A stretch of 22,157 bases of DNA from a virus: positions 1-22,157 of IMG/VR virus record IMGVR_UViG_3300017967_000246. The stretch is one strand, 5' to 3'. The notes beneath the pieces were generated by a model that saw only the letters and a list, made by a program, of their open reading frames with translations, was not told the origin of the DNA and made no database searches. The position numbers and the translations under genes are program-made. This document shows positions 3,746 to 19,873 of this stretch, in pieces; position 1 is the first letter of the stretch, and every line of letters starts with the position of its first letter.

Positions 3746-4618
3746 TTATCCGTAATTAAATGTGACTGTCCCTGTTCCGGCAGTTACTGTATATATTTTA
3801 TACCCTGAAACTGACGATGTGTCAACTGATGTAGTAAGACCTGCGGAAAAAGATGCTGAAAATACTTCGGGTATCTTCAAAATTACAATACCAGATCCAC
3901 CAGCACCACCGGATCTTCCACCTCCACCTGTTGCTCCAACGTTACCAGATCCACCACCACCGCCACCGGTGTTTTGTGTTCCAGAACCAGCAGATCCATT
4001 GGTTCCACCATTACCGCCACCACCGTCTCCACCAGATCCCCCATAAGAACCACCACCACCTGCTCTTGTTACTGAAGATCCTGTAATACTCGATGCTAAA
4101 CCATCTCCACCCACAGAACTTGTGCCTGGATCTTCACTGGCTCCACCACCGCCACCACCAGTGTTACCAGACCCAGGGTAATCGGCACCATCAAAACCTT
4201 GTCCAGTAGTACCCGAACCGCCACTAGATCCCTTTCCACATCCTCCACCAGATCCACCAGTTCCGCCACCGCCGTTTTCTCTTCCACCAGATCCTCCACC
4301 ATTGGAAGTTATATCATCAAATACACTATTTCCTCCAGTACCACCAGAACCATTACTACCACCTCCTCCTCCACCACCAACGGTTACAGTGTATGAAGTA
4401 CCAGTATCTACTGTCTTTGCTGCTTCAGCAGTAGAGTTTTCACCGGAAGTTTCACCAGGAACGTTTGTTCTGTAACCTCCAGCACCACCACCGCCGCCAG
4501 CAGGGTCCCATCCAGCAGTGTTAGTTCCTCCTCCACCACCTCCAGCAATAATAAGATACTCGACAGAAAGTGTTTCAGGAACAATTAGTTCCGTCAATGA
4601 TTGTTGGATTGTTGCCAT
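3746..4618 (-). CDS. Glycine-rich tail fibre adhesin
   Basis: This 290-aa protein is dominated by glycine clusters between residues 26 and 242, interspersed with short conserved turns. The N-terminal lead VEYLIIAGGGGGG and the closing GGSGIVILKIPE, followed by a short beta-rich tail (GYKIYTVTAGTGTVTFN), are typical of glycine-rich phage adhesin domains. The best-studied relatives in role are gp38-type tips of T4-like fibres, in which glycine-rich stretches pack as polyglycine-II helices and the loops between them bind the receptor. By that analogy this protein would cap a fibre. It directly follows the 657-aa collagen fibre gene (TAATG overlap), so that fibre is a natural partner, although this is not shown. 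Loop diversity would be expected to set host range. Confidence 0.75.
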   Translation of the reverse strand: MATIQQSLTELIVPETLSVEYLIIAGGGGGGTNTAGWDPAGGGGGAGGYRTNVPGETSGENSTAEAAKTVDTGTSYTVTVGGGGGGGSNGSGGTGGNSVFDDITSNGGGSGGRENGGGGTGGSGGGCGKGSSGGSGTTGQGFDGADYPGSGNTGGGGGGASEDPGTSSVGGDGLASSITGSSVTRAGGGGSYGGSGGDGGGGNGGTNGSAGSGTQNTGGGGGGSGNVGATGGGGRSGGAGGSGIVILKIPEVFSASFSAGLTTSVDTSSVSGYKIYTVTAGTGTVTFNYG

Positions 4619-6591
4619 TATGTCAATCCGCCGCCAGTAATTACAAATTCATTTGATGCCACACAAACAACCGTTGCAAGACCACGTTGTGCCAATGTTC
4701 TATTTCCAGTAGTCGCACTTCCAACTAAACGTAGGGTTACACTAGTTCCTTGAGTTATAGTGATAGAAGATGCTGAATTATTGTAGATAGTAATAGCATC
4801 ACCAGCACTAAAGATGCCAGAGGGAACCGTAACTCCAGAGTCTGTTGTTATTAGTCTTTGATCGTCTCCGGCAACTAAAGTATATGAAGTGGATTTGCTC
4901 GAATGTGTTAAACCAGAGAATCCTTGAGAACCTTGGTTACCTTGGTTACCTGTAGATCCTTGATTGCCTTGGTTCCCTGTAGCACCTTGGTTCCCTTGGT
5001 TTCCTGGATCACCTTGAGCACCAGGAGCACCTTGATTGCCTTGAGCACCAGGGTCACCTTGAGCTCCCGTACCAGGAGCACCTTGATTGCCCTGATTGCC
5101 AGGTGCACCTTGGTTACCTTGGGCTCCTTGGTCTCCTTGGTTACCTGTAGCGCCTTGGTTTCCTTGAGCACCTTGCAGTCCACCAGATCCTGGATCACCT
5201 TGAGCACCAGGAGCACCTTGGTTCCCTTGGTTACCTGTAGCGCCTTGGTTGCCTTGATTGCCAGTGGCACCTTGGTTACCTTGATTGCCAGCAGCACCCT
5301 GGTTTCCTTGGTTTCCTGCTGCTCCTTGGTTCCCTTGTGCACCACTAAGACCAGTATTAACTTGTACCCATTGCTCACTATTGCCGTCTGGATCCCTATA
5401 AAGTACGTGAAGGTCTCCATCATCAGAGTCCCACCAAAGGCTACCAACATCAGCATCTGCTGGCAATCCTGTTGATGTATAAACCGTACCGCCAATACCA
5501 GTTAGATTTGATCCATCACCAAAGTATGTGTGTGCTGTTACTATTCCACTACTTCCAAGTATTGTTATTCCAGTACCAACATAAACCTCATTGTTGATAC
5601 CATCTAAAGTAATTGATGCTGGACCAACTGTTAGAATTCCAGTTACTCTGGCATCACCTTCAACATATAACTTATATCCATTTTTTGCAGTTGTTCCAAT
5701 TCCAACATTTTTTGTTGTGTGAATACCAATTGTGTCAACTGCCCAAGTTCCTGCAGCGCCAACATTGACTCCAGTAAGTCCAGAACCATCACCAAAATAT
5801 TTAAATGCAGTAACAATACCTGCAGCAAATACTGCTGTATTACTAGAAGTTACTTCTGCTGTTGGATTTGTTGTTCCTACTCCAACATTTCCTAAAGTAT
5901 GGATACCTGCAGAATTAAGAGTCCAATAGTTTATAACGTCATCAAGAATTCCAGCATTCGCATCAACCCATTGTTCAGTATCACCATCATCATAACGAAT
6001 TAGAAGTGTTCCATTATCACTGTTCCACCAAAGATCTCCAGGGTTTGGTGAAGATGGTGCTGTATCTGAAATTGTTACAGTTTCACTACCACCAGAAGTT
6101 TCTACCCACTGATTACTTGTCCCATCTTCATATCTAACAAAAAGTTCTCCAACATCACTATCCCACCAGAGATCACCTTGAGTTGGTCCAGCTGGCGGTT
6201 CTGTTCCTACCGATACTCTTGCACTTGTAGATACTGTAATTGTAGAAATACTTCCACTTGCTGTTGCAGTAACACCAACACCAACAAAGTTTAATTTGGT
6301 TACGCTATTTGCAGTTCCTACCAGGAATCCTTCATCAAAAATACTGATTCCACCAGATTCTAATGCAGTTTGCTCCTGCCAATATCTATCATAGGTAGTC
6401 CCATTATCAATAGTAATTAATTGATAATATTTGTCGGCAACTGGTATTTCTTTTTCACCAGCATAACCTAAATTTGGCTCTACCTGACTTGGATCAACAT
6501 AAAGGTGTCTGTCTGAGGATAACGCCTCAGTTCCAGCAATCTTTACTCTTCCACTTAAATATCTATGACTCGGTTTTCTATATTCTGCCAT
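4618..6591 (-). CDS. Modular collagen-like tail fibre with LWW repeats
   Basis: This 657-aa modular fibre starts with a domain of about 125 residues ([16 protein letters not shown]), a likely virion anchor. Three copies of an LWW-type repeat of about 35 residues (GDLWWDSD...L.VRY.DG...QWV) lie at about residues 131-165, 178-210 and 374-411. Between copies two and three is a duplicated beta-fibre unit: GIHT..NVG.GTT at 229 and 289, and YFGDGS.LTG at 265 and 356. A collagen-like block covers 417-560 with about 48 triplets, and a C-terminal beta domain of about 97 residues follows ([16 protein letters not shown]). The GIHT/VG.G units also occur in the 1067-aa fibre, so the two share a construction kit. 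The gene overlaps the adhesin gene as TAATG. The receptor is unknown. Confidence 0.8.
4912..5343 (-). repeat. Collagen-coding tandem repeat of the 657-aa fibre
   Basis: About 48 Gly-X-Y triplets (residues 417-560) are built from 27-bp units like those of the two left-hand fibre genes. All seven prolines are in the Y position. The Gly507-Thr508-Gly509 register break matches the one in the 306-aa fibre. Confidence 0.85.
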
Positions 6592-14333: not shown

Positions 14334-16292
14334 TTAGAGGTTAGTTAAGAAACGTTGTGTTATAAGTCTATTTAATGCCTGACCAGCATTAGATAGTGTG
14401 TCCATGATTCCACCGCCACTACTTGTACCACCAGAAGCTTGCTGTTGTGCAGGCATAGGAACATTAATTGTATTGTTACCTTTAGGTGCTTGAAGATTTG
14501 GAAGAGATATTGATGATGAGGTTTGTGCTTGTGATGCAGAACCCAGAGATCTTTGATATACATCCTGTATACCCTTTAATTGTTTAGTTGGTTGATCTAA
14601 TCCAATAGTTTTACCTGGAAATGATGCCCACTGTCTACCCAATGCTGAGGAAACCTTATAACTCATACCTTCTCTTTTGAGAAACTCTGCTGTTACTCCC
14701 AACTCTTTAGCCAATTCTATAGCCGCTTTATCTTGGCTAGCAGGACTCATATCTTTCAATCCAAGTTTTCTAGCCAGTCTATTAAAAGTACCGGGCATAA
14801 ACTGATATCTACCAAATGCAGCACTTGCATATCTACCACTACGTTTTACGATATCTGGATGCCTACTAAGATCAGAAGTTTGATCTCCGGCAAAATGCGT
14901 ATTATAACCTGAGTTGGGGTACTTTGAGGTTCCTTCTGCATAAGCAATTGCGTCTAGCATTGCTCTTTGCTCTTTTGTCCCAACACCAGAACCAGAAGAT
15001 ATTGACGTAGATGTAGAACTAGAAGAAGGTGTCCGAGTTTGTCCAGAAGACGTTGTAGTTTGACCAGTTGCTCTAACTTTTGATCCAATGACCAATCCAC
15101 CACCCTCAATGAAACCTTTTGGATTCATTGTCTGAGACGGCATAGCACTTGCTGGATCATATGCTCTAGAATAATCAAGGTGTAAGTGAGGTCCGGTCGA
15201 TAATCCAGTATTACCACTTGTTCCAATTACAACTGCCGTTCCATTTGGTCCAGATCCAGCACCAACTCTTTGCCCCTTTCTTACATAAACCTTATCCAGG
15301 TGTGCCATCTTAACATACATTCCATTATCTAACTGAACGACAACAAATCTTCCATATCCACCACCAGCCTTAATTGATGTATTCACATCAACAACCGTTC
15401 CCTTTGCAATCATTGAGAGTGGTTGTCCAATTGGCATTGCATAGTCTTCACCAGTATGACCTCTTGTTCTTCCATCAGCACCATGAACACGAGCCTTACC
15501 TCTTGATCCAATTCCGCCAGGTCTATAATCACCATAGTCCTGACCATCAGGATCAGTTATCTTAGTTCCACCTTGAGAAACGTAAGTCATTCCCCCTGGT
15601 CCAGGTGGTCCAGCAGTAGGAGGTGCTTCTCCTGCTGCAGGTTCTTCTGCTCCAGGTTCTTCACCTTCTTCCAAGAAGACACCTTCCAGTGGGCTAAAGT
15701 CTAACGGTTCACTCAGAATATCAAACGCTGACCTTATATTACCCTCCATTAAATCAAATGAATTTCTCATTTCATCTACTGCTGTAGATACCTTACCTTG
15801 AGAATCGAAGAAATCAAATGTAGAAATATTCGATAATATTGCAGACAAAACATTCCCAAATCCAAGCAAGAAATTTCCAGTGTTAGTTACAAACTCACTA
15901 AGAACCCTCATGGTTCTGTTTATTCTATCAATGACTTGTTTGACAACATTAATAATAATAGGGATATTTTTTATTGCCCATGCAACTAAGAGAGAACCTA
16001 TAAAATCCATGATTCTTCCCATGAATCCCTTTGTGCTTCCAGAAGCAACATTTCCAGATCTTCTTTCTGCTCCAGATAATGAGGATGCTTCAATAATACT
16101 TTCCTGCTCTCTTCTCCTAACTGCTTCTCTTCTCTTCAAAAATGTACTCTGAGAGATTCTCATTGAAGATCTCTTAAAAGTATTCGATCTCTTTATTGTA
16201 CTCGAAATGCTCTTAGTAGAAGATTGAGCATTTGTTACAGCCCTACTAAGACCACTAACTGATTCTGATATTTTAGCGAGAGCTACTGACAT
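14334..16292 (-). CDS. Hub or tape-measure-like protein with M23 peptidase and lambda-R-type muramidase domains
   Basis: This 652-aa protein seems to carry the tail's cell-wall-cutting activity. Residues 1-90 are Ser/Arg-rich and helical. A hydrophobic segment follows (FIGSLLVAWAIKNIPIII, about 97-114), with more helix to about 195 and an acidic Pro/Glu linker. An M23 zinc peptidase covers about 262-395: H279-x3-D283 and HLH at 369-371 supply the zinc and catalytic residues, and H331 is in MAHLD. A second enzyme domain (about 440-585) matches lambda endolysin R (GH104 transglycosylase) motif by motif: AIAYAEGT with catalytic-type E453, SAAFGRYQ, LGLKDMSPASQDKAAI and RQWASFPG. The last 65 residues are flexible. 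The first 130 residues match the upstream 454-aa protein in layout. The gene starts with a TAATG overlap. Confidence 0.85.
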   Translation of the reverse strand: MSVALAKISESVSGLSRAVTNAQSSTKSISSTIKRSNTFKRSSMRISQSTFLKRREAVRRREQESIIEASSLSGAERRSGNVASGSTKGFMGRIMDFIGSLLVAWAIKNIPIIINVVKQVIDRINRTMRVLSEFVTNTGNFLLGFGNVLSAILSNISTFDFFDSQGKVSTAVDEMRNSFDLMEGNIRSAFDILSEPLDFSPLEGVFLEEGEEPGAEEPAAGEAPPTAGPPGPGGMTYVSQGGTKITDPDGQDYGDYRPGGIGSRGKARVHGADGRTRGHTGEDYAMPIGQPLSMIAKGTVVDVNTSIKAGGGYGRFVVVQLDNGMYVKMAHLDKVYVRKGQRVGAGSGPNGTAVVIGTSGNTGLSTGPHLHLDYSRAYDPASAMPSQTMNPKGFIEGGGLVIGSKVRATGQTTTSSGQTRTPSSSSTSTSISSGSGVGTKEQRAMLDAIAYAEGTSKYPNSGYNTHFAGDQTSDLSRHPDIVKRSGRYASAAFGRYQFMPGTFNRLARKLGLKDMSPASQDKAAIELAKELGVTAEFLKREGMSYKVSSALGRQWASFPGKTIGLDQPTKQLKGIQDVYQRSLGSASQAQTSSSISLPNLQAPKGNNTINVPMPAQQQASGGTSSGGGIMDTLSNAGQALNRLITQRFLTNL

Positions 16293-17656
16293 TATACAAC
16301 AACGTTATAATTGATTTGTGAATATAATGTATAAAAGTTATCAATATTTGAAGATCTTATATTTGGAATTGAAGATGCCTGAGCACCAGATTCAACAGGA
16401 ACAGATTGTCCCTCTCCACCACTACTAGGAAGTATCTGAACAGTTGGTTCAGATTTTGGTTCTGGACCAACAGATCCAGACATATCTGCTTTTGGTGCAG
16501 ATGAAACTTGTGCTGGTGTTGAAGATCCAGTAGAAGTTGAAGATACCTGAGCTTGTGATGGAGGAGCAGAGGTTCCACCGCTAGTATCCCCCTTTTTCAA
16601 TTCATCTTCTTTTTTAAATGTTGCTTGAGAGGTATTTGCTTCTACACCTTTAGTATCACCCTTCTTATCACCCATCAGACTTTCTGTTGGTTTTGCTGAT
16701 GTTGATGTTGTTGCTGGTTTCGGTTCTCCCTCCCCCATAGACTGCTTATATGCTTCCGCTTCTTCCCTTTTTTGCTTAAGTAGTTTTGGATCTGCACCAG
16801 TAAAGTTTTTACCAAATGCCTCCATCAATTCATCTACAGCAAAAGCTACTCTAACTCCCTTAAAGAATATTCCACCTCTTGGAACCATTGACAGTGCCGC
16901 CAATGCACTATCAACGTATTCACCATTCATAAAGTTCATGGCACCACTTAATCCAGTTAGGATACTTCCAAAGAATCCAGGACCACCACCTTTGCCAGGT
17001 CTTCCACCTGTATTTGGAGTTGGTGGAGCTATTGGTTTAGGTGCTCTTCCAAATAATCTTCCTATTGAATTTGCCGCTCTGCCTATTGCACCTTTAATCG
17101 CATTCATCAGTGCGGAAAATGGTTTTCTAATTAATCCCTGATATACACCATTTAAAACAAATCCACCAATTCGACCAATCGTTCGAACAATTCCCGAAAT
17201 GCCATATCTTGCTAGTGCAAATATGAATACAATTTTTCGTAATGTTCCTAGTACGTTATCTCTTATCTCTTCTAACTTTCTCTTATTATCATCCTTATAG
17301 GCATTCAGTGCATCGATGCCCTGCTTTGTGAGCCAACCTGCGACTACTCCTATGAATAGACGCTTCAGTGTTTCTAAAATTCCTTGTGCAGGAGCAGCAA
17401 CTCTCTGCATCGGAGAAACGAGAGCACTTTGCATCTTTCTTTCGAAAGTGCTTTCCTTACCTTCTCTAAGTTGTTGTTCTGCTAAAAGTCTTTCTCTATT
17501 TTGCTGCTGCTGTTCTTTCATCCTCTCTAAAGAGGATGCTTCTGATAACTGAGTTGATATAGTCGTTAAGGAACTGCCGAACGAACTCATTCGGGCAGAA
17601 ATCTTTTCTAACCTGTTACTGATATTATTTAATTGAATATCAGAGACTTCCGCCAT
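16292..17656 (-). CDS. Candidate tape-measure or hub protein (gp29 position)
   Basis: This 454-aa protein directly follows gp26 and its -1 extension, where phages usually encode the tape measure. Residues 1-40 are Ser-rich heptad-like helix (ISNRLEKISARMSSFGSSL), 43-76 a strongly charged, Gln-rich coiled coil, and about 98-175 hydrophobic helices (LFIGVVAGWLTKQGIDAL, TLRKIVFIFALARYGI). A Gly/Pro segment (GGRPGKGGGPGFFG) is followed by a further helical part to about 285, then about 140 residues of Pro/Thr/Ser-rich, probably disordered sequence, and a short end (FYTLYSQINYNVVV). T4 gp29 has about 590 residues, and this protein lacks a comparable long helical rod, so a tape-measure role is only a candidate. 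An inner-hub or ejected protein is an alternative. The ATG lies 17 bp inside the upstream ORF, preceded by AAGGAAAGGG. Confidence 0.6.
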   Translation of the reverse strand: MAEVSDIQLNNISNRLEKISARMSSFGSSLTTISTQLSEASSLERMKEQQQQNRERLLAEQQLREGKESTFERKMQSALVSPMQRVAAPAQGILETLKRLFIGVVAGWLTKQGIDALNAYKDDNKRKLEEIRDNVLGTLRKIVFIFALARYGISGIVRTIGRIGGFVLNGVYQGLIRKPFSALMNAIKGAIGRAANSIGRLFGRAPKPIAPPTPNTGGRPGKGGGPGFFGSILTGLSGAMNFMNGEYVDSALAALSMVPRGGIFFKGVRVAFAVDELMEAFGKNFTGADPKLLKQKREEAEAYKQSMGEGEPKPATTSTSAKPTESLMGDKKGDTKGVEANTSQATFKKEDELKKGDTSGGTSAPPSQAQVSSTSTGSSTPAQVSSAPKADMSGSVGPEPKSEPTVQILPSSGGEGQSVPVESGAQASSIPNIRSSNIDNFYTLYSQINYNVVV

Positions 17657-17825
17657 CTCTTGCCCTTTCCTTTAAAGTTTCTTCTTCGATGTATTGCTTG
17701 AGTAGGGTAAGATAAATCTCTCTTTCCCAAGGAATCATATTTTCTAGCTCTGTCAAGCTATATTTATGATGTTGCATGAGGGCAAAATTAACCTTATAGT
17801 ATGACTCAAGATCAGCATGAGCCAT
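17640..17825 (-). CDS. 61-codon ORF: -1 frameshift extension of gp26 (gp51 position)
   Basis: This frame encodes a small, mostly helical segment (LESYYKVNFALMQHHKYSLTELENMIPWEREIYLTLL...) ending in charged residues. An ATG is present 2 nt after the gp26 stop, so it could be a separate 61-aa protein in the position of T4 gp51, the hub assembly catalyst, although T4 gp51 is about four times longer. The only strong GGAGG upstream is 25 nt away, too far for this ATG but well placed for frameshifting. A -1 slip at the U UUU UUC near the end of gp26 leads straight into this frame and adds Arg-Val-Gly before the Met. I therefore favour its main role as the T part of a G/GT-like tail chaperone. It overlaps the next gene by 17 bp. 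Confidence 0.75.
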   Translation of the reverse strand: MAHADLESYYKVNFALMQHHKYSLTELENMIPWEREIYLTLLKQYIEEETLKERARDGGSL

Positions 17826-17827
17826 AC

Positions 17828-18547
17828 CTACACGAAAAAAGCGGACAGACCCTCCAGCAAGACTTCACTTTCAACTCCAGTGTTTGGATTCTTGACCTTA
17901 AATGTGTGAGAAAGTTTGGGCATTGTTTCAAAGAAGTTTTCAATCTCTTTGAATTGCTTAGAACTTAACTGCTCCATAAAATCTAGAAGTTCTTTTTTGC
18001 TACAATCAGCAGCAGTCCAAGACTCTTCCTCATTATAAACTTGTTCAATGCATGAAGAGATCAAATCAAAAGTATCTTCCAGATCAATATTTCCATCCAT
18101 AGCAAAGTTACTCTTAACAAACTCTTCCATTGAAGGATACTTCATACGGAGAGATAAGTTATCATCTAACTTAATATCTTTACTGTGCTTTTCACTTTCT
18201 TGAACTTTGATGTCGTCTAGAGCAATAACAACTGGAACCTGTGTGACTCCATCATCGGGACAAGTAACTAGAACTTCTACTTCTTCTCCAACAGACTTTC
18301 CACGAATGTTGAGGAAAAGATACTCAATATCAAATGTGGATAAATCTTCAACCTTCACACCACGAGAAAGAATACAGTTCTTGATAACTGTTTTAACTGC
18401 ACCAGCAATTTGCTTTGGATCTTCACTCTCCATCGCAATAATCAAGACCTTCTCTTCCTTCACAAGAAATGGTCTATATCTTACTTTCTTTTTAGAAGAA
18501 GGAATCTCCAACTCATAAGTTGGCGTTGCAATCTTTGGTAATGGCAT
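17828..18547 (-). CDS. gp26: Baseplate hub assembly protein gp26 (tail chaperone-like)
   Basis: This 239-aa protein resembles the gp26 family of T4-type phages (T4 gp26 has 208 aa). It begins with a strand-rich segment (YELEIPSSKKKVRYRPFLVKEEKVLIIA) and continues with VKTVIKNCILS, then FDIEYLFLNIRGKSVGE, FDLISSCIEQVYNEEE and a C-terminal helical part (LLDFMEQLSSKQFKEIENFFETMPKL). It ends with a Cys-free, zinc-finger-like remnant strand (FKVKNPNTGVESEVLLEGL). gp26 is needed to build the baseplate hub in T4 and is thought to act like the tail-assembly chaperones of other phages. The last codons contain a slippery U UUU UUC with an upstream GGAGG, so part of the product probably carries a 64-residue extension (about 302 aa in total). 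The ATG follows a 44-bp gap with a late-promoter-like box. Confidence 0.85.
   Translation of the reverse strand: MPLPKIATPTYELEIPSSKKKVRYRPFLVKEEKVLIIAMESEDPKQIAGAVKTVIKNCILSRGVKVEDLSTFDIEYLFLNIRGKSVGEEVEVLVTCPDDGVTQVPVVIALDDIKVQESEKHSKDIKLDDNLSLRMKYPSMEEFVKSNFAMDGNIDLEDTFDLISSCIEQVYNEEESWTAADCSKKELLDFMEQLSSKQFKEIENFFETMPKLSHTFKVKNPNTGVESEVLLEGLSAFFV
17834..17855 (-). promoter_or_regulatory. Programmed -1 ribosomal frameshift cassette at the end of gp26
   Basis: On the minus strand GGAGG (17855-17851) is followed by exactly 10 nt and then the heptamer T TTT TTC (17840-17834), in the correct phase with gp26 codons GCT TTT TTC. The zero frame then reads GTG TAG and stops, and the -1 frame reads CGT GTA GGT ATG into the 61-codon ORF. 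The SD-like element at this spacing is the same arrangement as in the E. coli dnaX frameshift signal. Only a weak 5-bp stem (GCUCA/UGAGU) is seen downstream. Confidence 0.75.
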
Positions 18548-19428: not shown

Positions 19429-19436
19429 TATTTAGA
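19429..19436 (-). promoter_or_regulatory. Candidate late promoter (TCTAAATA) for the leftward arm
   Basis: TCTAAATA on the minus strand reaches the first base of the gp4 ATG and lies 30 nt upstream of the gp54-like GTG. It is the mirror of the plus-strand box at 19399, and together they would make a compact divergent late promoter in the 37-bp gap. Confidence 0.5.
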
Positions 19437-19873
19437 TGTCATACAAAGGAAAATATCAACCATCATATCCACAAAAATACAAAGGAGATCCAACCAATAT
19501 TATATACCGTTCCTTATGGGAACGTAAGTTTATGAAATACTGTGATCTGAATGAAAACATTTTAGAATGGGGAAGTGAAGAAATATATGTATGGTATAAG
19601 TCTCCGATTGATAGAAAGTCTCATAGATATTTTCCAGACTTTTATATTAAAGTGAAAGAATCAACTGGTAAGATCAAAAAATATATTATTGAGATCAAAC
19701 CAAAAAAACAAACTACTCCTCCACCAAAACCTAAGAGACAAACTCAAGGTTATATCCGTGAAGCATATGAGTATGCCAAAAATCAAGCGAAGTGGGAAGC
19801 AGCAAAGGAGTGGTGCCTTGACAGAGGATATGAATTTAGAGTCTTTACGGAAAAAGAATTAGGTATTAACTAA
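19436..19873 (+). CDS. gp4: Head completion protein gp4
   Basis: This 145-aa protein clearly matches T4 gp4 (about 150 aa): YKGKYQPSYPQKYKGDP, then IIYRSLWERKFMKYCD, ILEWGSEEI, HRYFPDFYIKVK and KKYIIEIKPKKQT. gp4 acts at head completion, before tail joining, after DNA is packaged. The fold is of the TnsA/PD-(D/E)xK nuclease type, and here the signature looks intact, with P67-D68 and E87-I-K89 plus the acidic E48/E49 upstream. Whether gp4 cuts DNA is not settled, but nothing in this copy suggests loss of the site. It is the first gene of the rightward arm. Its stop overlaps the next ATG as TAATG, so the two are probably translated together. There is no clear Shine-Dalgarno sequence in front. 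Confidence 0.92.
   Translation: MSYKGKYQPSYPQKYKGDPTNIIYRSLWERKFMKYCDLNENILEWGSEEIYVWYKSPIDRKSHRYFPDFYIKVKESTGKIKKYIIEIKPKKQTTPPPKPKRQTQGYIREAYEYAKNQAKWEAAKEWCLDRGYEFRVFTEKELGIN

Follow-up and report, generated by a model that had tools for sequence, protein, structure and literature searches.

On the minus strand of the 22,157-nt viral stretch analysed here (the window; IMG/VR record IMGVR_UViG_3300017967_000246), from a cyanophage related to T4, gp26 ends in what is very probably a programmed −1 ribosomal frameshift site of the dnaX type, yielding a short and a long form of a tail-assembly chaperone. Most ribosomes would read the heptamer T TTT TTC in frame and stop at the following TAG; their product would be the short chaperone, of 239 aa (TAC-N, comparable to lambda gpG). 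A minority would pause at the heptamer, aided by a predicted pairing of the upstream GGAGG with 16S rRNA and by a hairpin 5 nt to the 3′ side. These paused ribosomes would slip back by one base, and their 302-aa product (TAC-NC, comparable to lambda gpGT) would carry an extra domain at its C-terminus. That slippage occurs, and at what rate, we infer from the sequence; both forms are presumed to be tape-measure/tail-tube assembly chaperones.

The signal at the end of gp26 and its surroundings

Read along the minus strand, the end of the gene runs GAA GTC TTG CTG GAG GGT CTG TCC GCT TTT TTC GTG TAG G TATGGC. The sequence-only reading of the site had listed GGAGG, 10 nt, T TTT TTC in phase, GTG TAG and a 61-codon ORF in the −1 frame, all of which are exact to the base. 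Its arithmetic for the slip product (238 residues from gp26, 3 at the junction and 61 from the ORF, 302 in total) agrees with the sequence as well. Its description of the signal was incomplete in one respect, the downstream hairpin having been overlooked. Past the slip, the −1 frame continues CGT GTA GGT ATG and reaches its stop at 17642-17640. The exact arrangement of GGAGG, spacer and heptamer occurs a single time in the 22-kb record. Coordinates of these features and of the neighbouring genes are collected in the Table.

Table. Features of the putative frameshift site and its neighbours in the window
Feature	Position	Strand	Basis
gp26 ORF, 239 aa; putative short form (TAC-N, gpG-like)	17828..18547	-	PF12322 T4_baseplate, phrog_150; AlphaFold2 pLDDT 87.6
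SD-like GGAGG, 10 nt 5′ of the heptamer	17851..17855	-	sequence; GAG bias in relatives
10-nt spacer between GGAGG and heptamer	17850-17841	-	
Slippery heptamer T TTT TTC, in phase (X XXY YYZ)	17834..17840	-	sequence; conserved in relatives
Zero-frame TAG stop, 3 nt past the heptamer	17828..17830	-	
−1 frame extension, 64 codons and stop; putative TAC-C (gpT-like)	17640..17834	-	phrog_634, phrog_150 columns 240-278, homology to T4 gp51 C-terminus
61-codon ORF with its own ATG; gp51 in relatives' annotation	17640..17825	-	
Hairpin 5′ arm, 11 bp, from 5 nt past the heptamer	17818..17828	-	folding, -14.7 kcal/mol
Hairpin loop, 9 nt	17809-17817	-	
Hairpin 3′ arm	17798..17808	-	pairing; relatives
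Next gene, 454 aa; candidate part of the tape-measure system	16292..17656	-	inferred from position
652-aa protein; tape-measure candidate	14334..16292	-	M23 peptidase domain; weak tape-measure/endolysin matches

The gp26 gene has a tail-tube protein upstream and long tail proteins downstream, although profile comparison of the downstream genes with T4 gp29 gave no firm homology. The 454- and 652-aa proteins give weak profile matches to the N-terminal part of a single protein of 864-996 aa in other cyanophages, and on this sequence likeness the tape-measure gene may be split in the window (14334-17656, minus strand). Elsewhere on the minus strand, putative tail-fibre proteins at 58-2738 and 4618-6591 carry long runs of collagen-like GNQGNQGA repeats, and a 2OG-Fe(II) oxygenase gene (PF13759; 2789-3382) lies amid the putative tail-fibre genes. 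On the plus strand, a TnsA-like endonuclease domain (PF08722) is encoded at 19436-19873, in a gene at the position held in relatives by gp4/head closure.

Conservation of the heptamer and of its flanking elements

We gathered relatives of gp26 from IMG/VR and among annotated phages. At the gp26 end, 128 of 130 distinct loci have T TTT TTC in phase; of the closer relatives, 131 of 132 have T TTT TTN in phase within the last 11 gp26 codons (1.6% in the codon-shuffling control). In a wider set of related loci, for which an in-phase heptamer was not a selection criterion, 190 of 192 distinct loci have T TTT TTC or T TTT TTT in phase. Synonymous redraws that preserve the protein produced TTTTTTC in 11% of cases, and the ends of other ORFs from the same loci carry the heptamer in 3 of 387. 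Its presence at the gp26 end is far above chance expectation. The two loci that lack it (L108 and L121) apparently lost the end of gp26, heptamer included, through indels.

The codon 5′ of the heptamer is always NNT although its residue varies between Ser, Ala, Asn and Asp, showing that the T is maintained and the amino acid is not. Among sites chosen for having the heptamer, the two Phe codons are fixed as TTT then TTC, and the five codons of the site form the stretch of lowest synonymous change in the gp26 gene; that the Phe codons show zero change is in part a product of this choice. The type of zero-frame stop and the codon preceding it differ between relatives, and in 129 of 132 the −1 frame stays open for 50 codons or more. 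The heptamer, its phase, the GGAGG region and the open −1 frame are all kept among the relatives, so that the frameshift passes the refuting check set beforehand, loss of the heptamer or of its phase.

Upstream, an SD-like element is conserved at about 10 nt from the heptamer, as in a dnaX-type signal. Of 130 relatives, 113 use GAG for the Glu codon within GGAGG, compared with 31% GAG elsewhere in gp26, and the GAGGG core is strongly conserved across the aligned sites.

Downstream, the arms of the hairpin are paired in 94.1% of cells among 45 close relatives; sliding one side lowers this to 26.6-39.3%. The covariation score in these relatives is 0.102 compared with 0.042 after shuffling, above all 500 shuffles. 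One pair covaries (U-A in 26, G-C in 11 and A-U in 4), an Ala codon varying at its third position in step with the middle position of a Glu/Ala/Val codon, with at least 9 changes on a tree that was built without the site. Sister-pair tests of this pair did not reach significance, well-supported pairs being too few. In a broader set, two-sided changes were seen at 5 pairs. The mean folding z of the relatives is -3.4, and some clades have alternative hairpins of like kind, such as GGTCC-ATAT-GGACC. RNAalifold returned no consensus structure over all 165 aligned sites, probably owing to a shift of hairpin register in distant clades, whereas counting pairs for a named structure did detect the hairpin. 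The 3′ arm of the window is not among the pairs counted in alignments A1 and A2, and the window hairpin was checked separately. A structure with compensatory changes is thus found at the 5-9 nt of a dnaX-type signal, weaker or shifted in register in distant clades.

Among more distant phages, T TTT TTC is also present in Vibrio F86, VH7D and EniLVp02 and in Aeromonas AP1, which, where classified, belong to Straboviridae outside Tevenvirinae. Sinorhizobium phiM19 and Methylophilales Melnitz-3 have T TTT TTT, and Rhizobium phages have T TTT TTG. The classical heptamer is absent from the distant relatives Vibrio D506 and Kuttervirus, and a viral scan with Vibrio F86 as query gave no matches. In Kuttervirus and its relatives (L178-L195), gp26 ends in ATT TTC AT(T/C) TAA in every distinct locus, and the −1 frame is open for 49-53 codons encoding a similar domain. 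Most of these loci have ATT right at the stop, where others have ATG; a non-standard slip or an ATT start is perhaps used there.

Relation of the extension to T4 gp26 and gp51

The gp26 protein matches the profiles PF12322 and phrog_150, and its AlphaFold2 model, of good quality, is strongly similar to other gp26 proteins. Among solved structures, the HK97 tail chaperone 2ob9 ranked third by E-value without significance (E 0.91, prob 0.60), and a sequence search of the PDB gave no chaperone match. For the −1 extension there are matches to phrog_634 and to phrog_150 (columns 240-278), so some database members hold both parts. In RB49, IME13 and T4-like ACG-C40, gp51 matches phrog_150 over its whole length, and gp26 matches the first 235 columns only.

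Profile comparison sets the predicted fusion against columns 16-292 of T4-type gp51 (E 6.5e-21), end to end, and T4 gp26 against the N-terminal part of the fusion. The extension by itself matches gp51 203-249 (E 3.2e-9) and gave no match to T4 gp26. These alignments equate T4 gp26 with the short form and T4 gp51 with the long form. As in tail chaperones, the predicted long form consists of the short form with a C-terminal domain added and is kin to a known long form. The analogy to lambda G/GT that had been drawn is borne out at the sequence level, since the extension shares homology with the last domain of T4 gp51, and the alignment with the fusion covers all of gp51. On this homology, T4 would use two related genes for what these cyanophages appear to make by frameshifting, and the cyanophage gene named gp51 corresponds to the last domain only of T4-type gp51.

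T4 gp26 and gp51 are both members of PF12322/phrog_150, gp51 bearing the extra C-terminal domain. They differ from the cyanophage arrangement in being two genes, divergently oriented and without a frameshift. The earlier statement that they are separate genes holds to this extent; their separateness as unrelated genes does not, since gp51 is a GT-like protein of full length that is related to gp26. In the tree, T4-type gp26 and gp51 fall together on one side of a branch with support of only 89/87, a hint of a possible duplication within the T4 lineage.

Alternative readings and comparison with known systems

The second domain could instead be a protein in its own right, with gp26 ending at TAG, the 61-aa protein starting from its own ATG by coupling or reinitiation, and the heptamer and hairpin being incidental or serving initiation. 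Of 130 relatives, 116 have the ATG at its usual place, and in the window it follows the zero-frame stop by 2 nt; stop and start overlap as TAATG or TGATG in several relatives, and annotators treat gp51 as a gene of its own. However, in the 14 of 130 relatives without this ATG the −1 frame is still open and the residues around the ATG site are conserved, and the ATG was lost with at least 8 changes on the tree. Two independent proteins would leave the fixed phase of the heptamer and the NNT rule unexplained, and T4 gp51 is continuous over the junction. We regard this alternative as very unlikely, though coupled initiation could add a free 61-aa protein to the products of frameshifting. For the genomes without the ATG, a frameshift is, as judged from their sequences, the natural route to the second domain. 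We dropped the missing SD of the ATG as an argument against separate initiation, as gp26 and the next gene are mostly SD-less too. In ACG-2014d, S-SSM4 and Vibrio VH7D (L173, L177 and L278), gp51 is unannotated and a homologous domain lies in the open −1 frame after gp26.

A −1 frame product could also arise by slippage of the polymerase at the T6 run rather than of the ribosome, and nearly all sites do carry a run of six or seven T. Polymerase slippage is rare on T runs this short. Most sites have only six T, their codon phase is fixed, the run is followed by C (less often T or G), and the flanking SD-like and hairpin elements are typical of ribosomal slippage; transcriptional slippage is an extremely improbable source of the fusion.

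The proposed frameshift site resembles that of E. coli dnaX, which has an SD-like element about 10 nt upstream of an X XXY YYZ heptamer and a hairpin about 5 nt downstream. The dnaX heptamer is A AAA AAG, and slipping there leads to an early stop and a shorter product; the cyanophage slip, in contrast, lengthens the product. The analogy to dnaX, first proposed without the hairpin, is strengthened by its presence at the right distance. Lambda, to our knowledge, uses a different heptamer and has no comparable combination of SD and hairpin. It shares a −1 slip near the end of a short chaperone gene, among tail genes, by which a second domain is added (gpG/gpGT; PMC5009743).

A 2016 review described G-T frameshifting as conserved in long-tailed phages, T4 excepted (PMC5009743). 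As relayed in PMC10885494 (PRFect) and PMC12846349, Vladimirov, Gautam and Davidson (Virology 2022;566:9-15, DOI 10.1016/j.virol.2021.11.003) describe TAC-N and TAC-NC, the short and long forms, in T4-like phages, with poly-T slippery sites in some T4-like groups, whereas other groups have one short gene and a second, longer one that encodes the fusion. The proposal that T4-type gp26/gp51 belong with the frameshifted chaperones is supported by the sequences compared here but is not new: going by those accounts, the central idea of a frameshifted chaperone in T4-like phages was already published in 2022. The abstract of the 2022 article reportedly names genes 26 and 51 for T4. The covarying hairpin, the codon bias at the SD-like element and the recurrent start-codon losses may go beyond what has been published.

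Taken together, we consider it reasonably likely that a complete, dnaX-like three-part signal drives the cyanophage chaperone frameshift, with a hairpin straddling the stop and the start of the second domain, that in the several lineages without a second start codon the fusion is the natural route, and that T4 has swapped in two related genes. What is added to the published principle is stronger evidence and a more precise account of the signal. In hundreds of cyanophage genomes, the separately annotated gp51 most likely forms the latter half of a fusion protein, a reading that would also explain the genomes seemingly without gp51. One phage group would then hold two solutions for making a short and a long chaperone, frameshifting and a pair of related genes.
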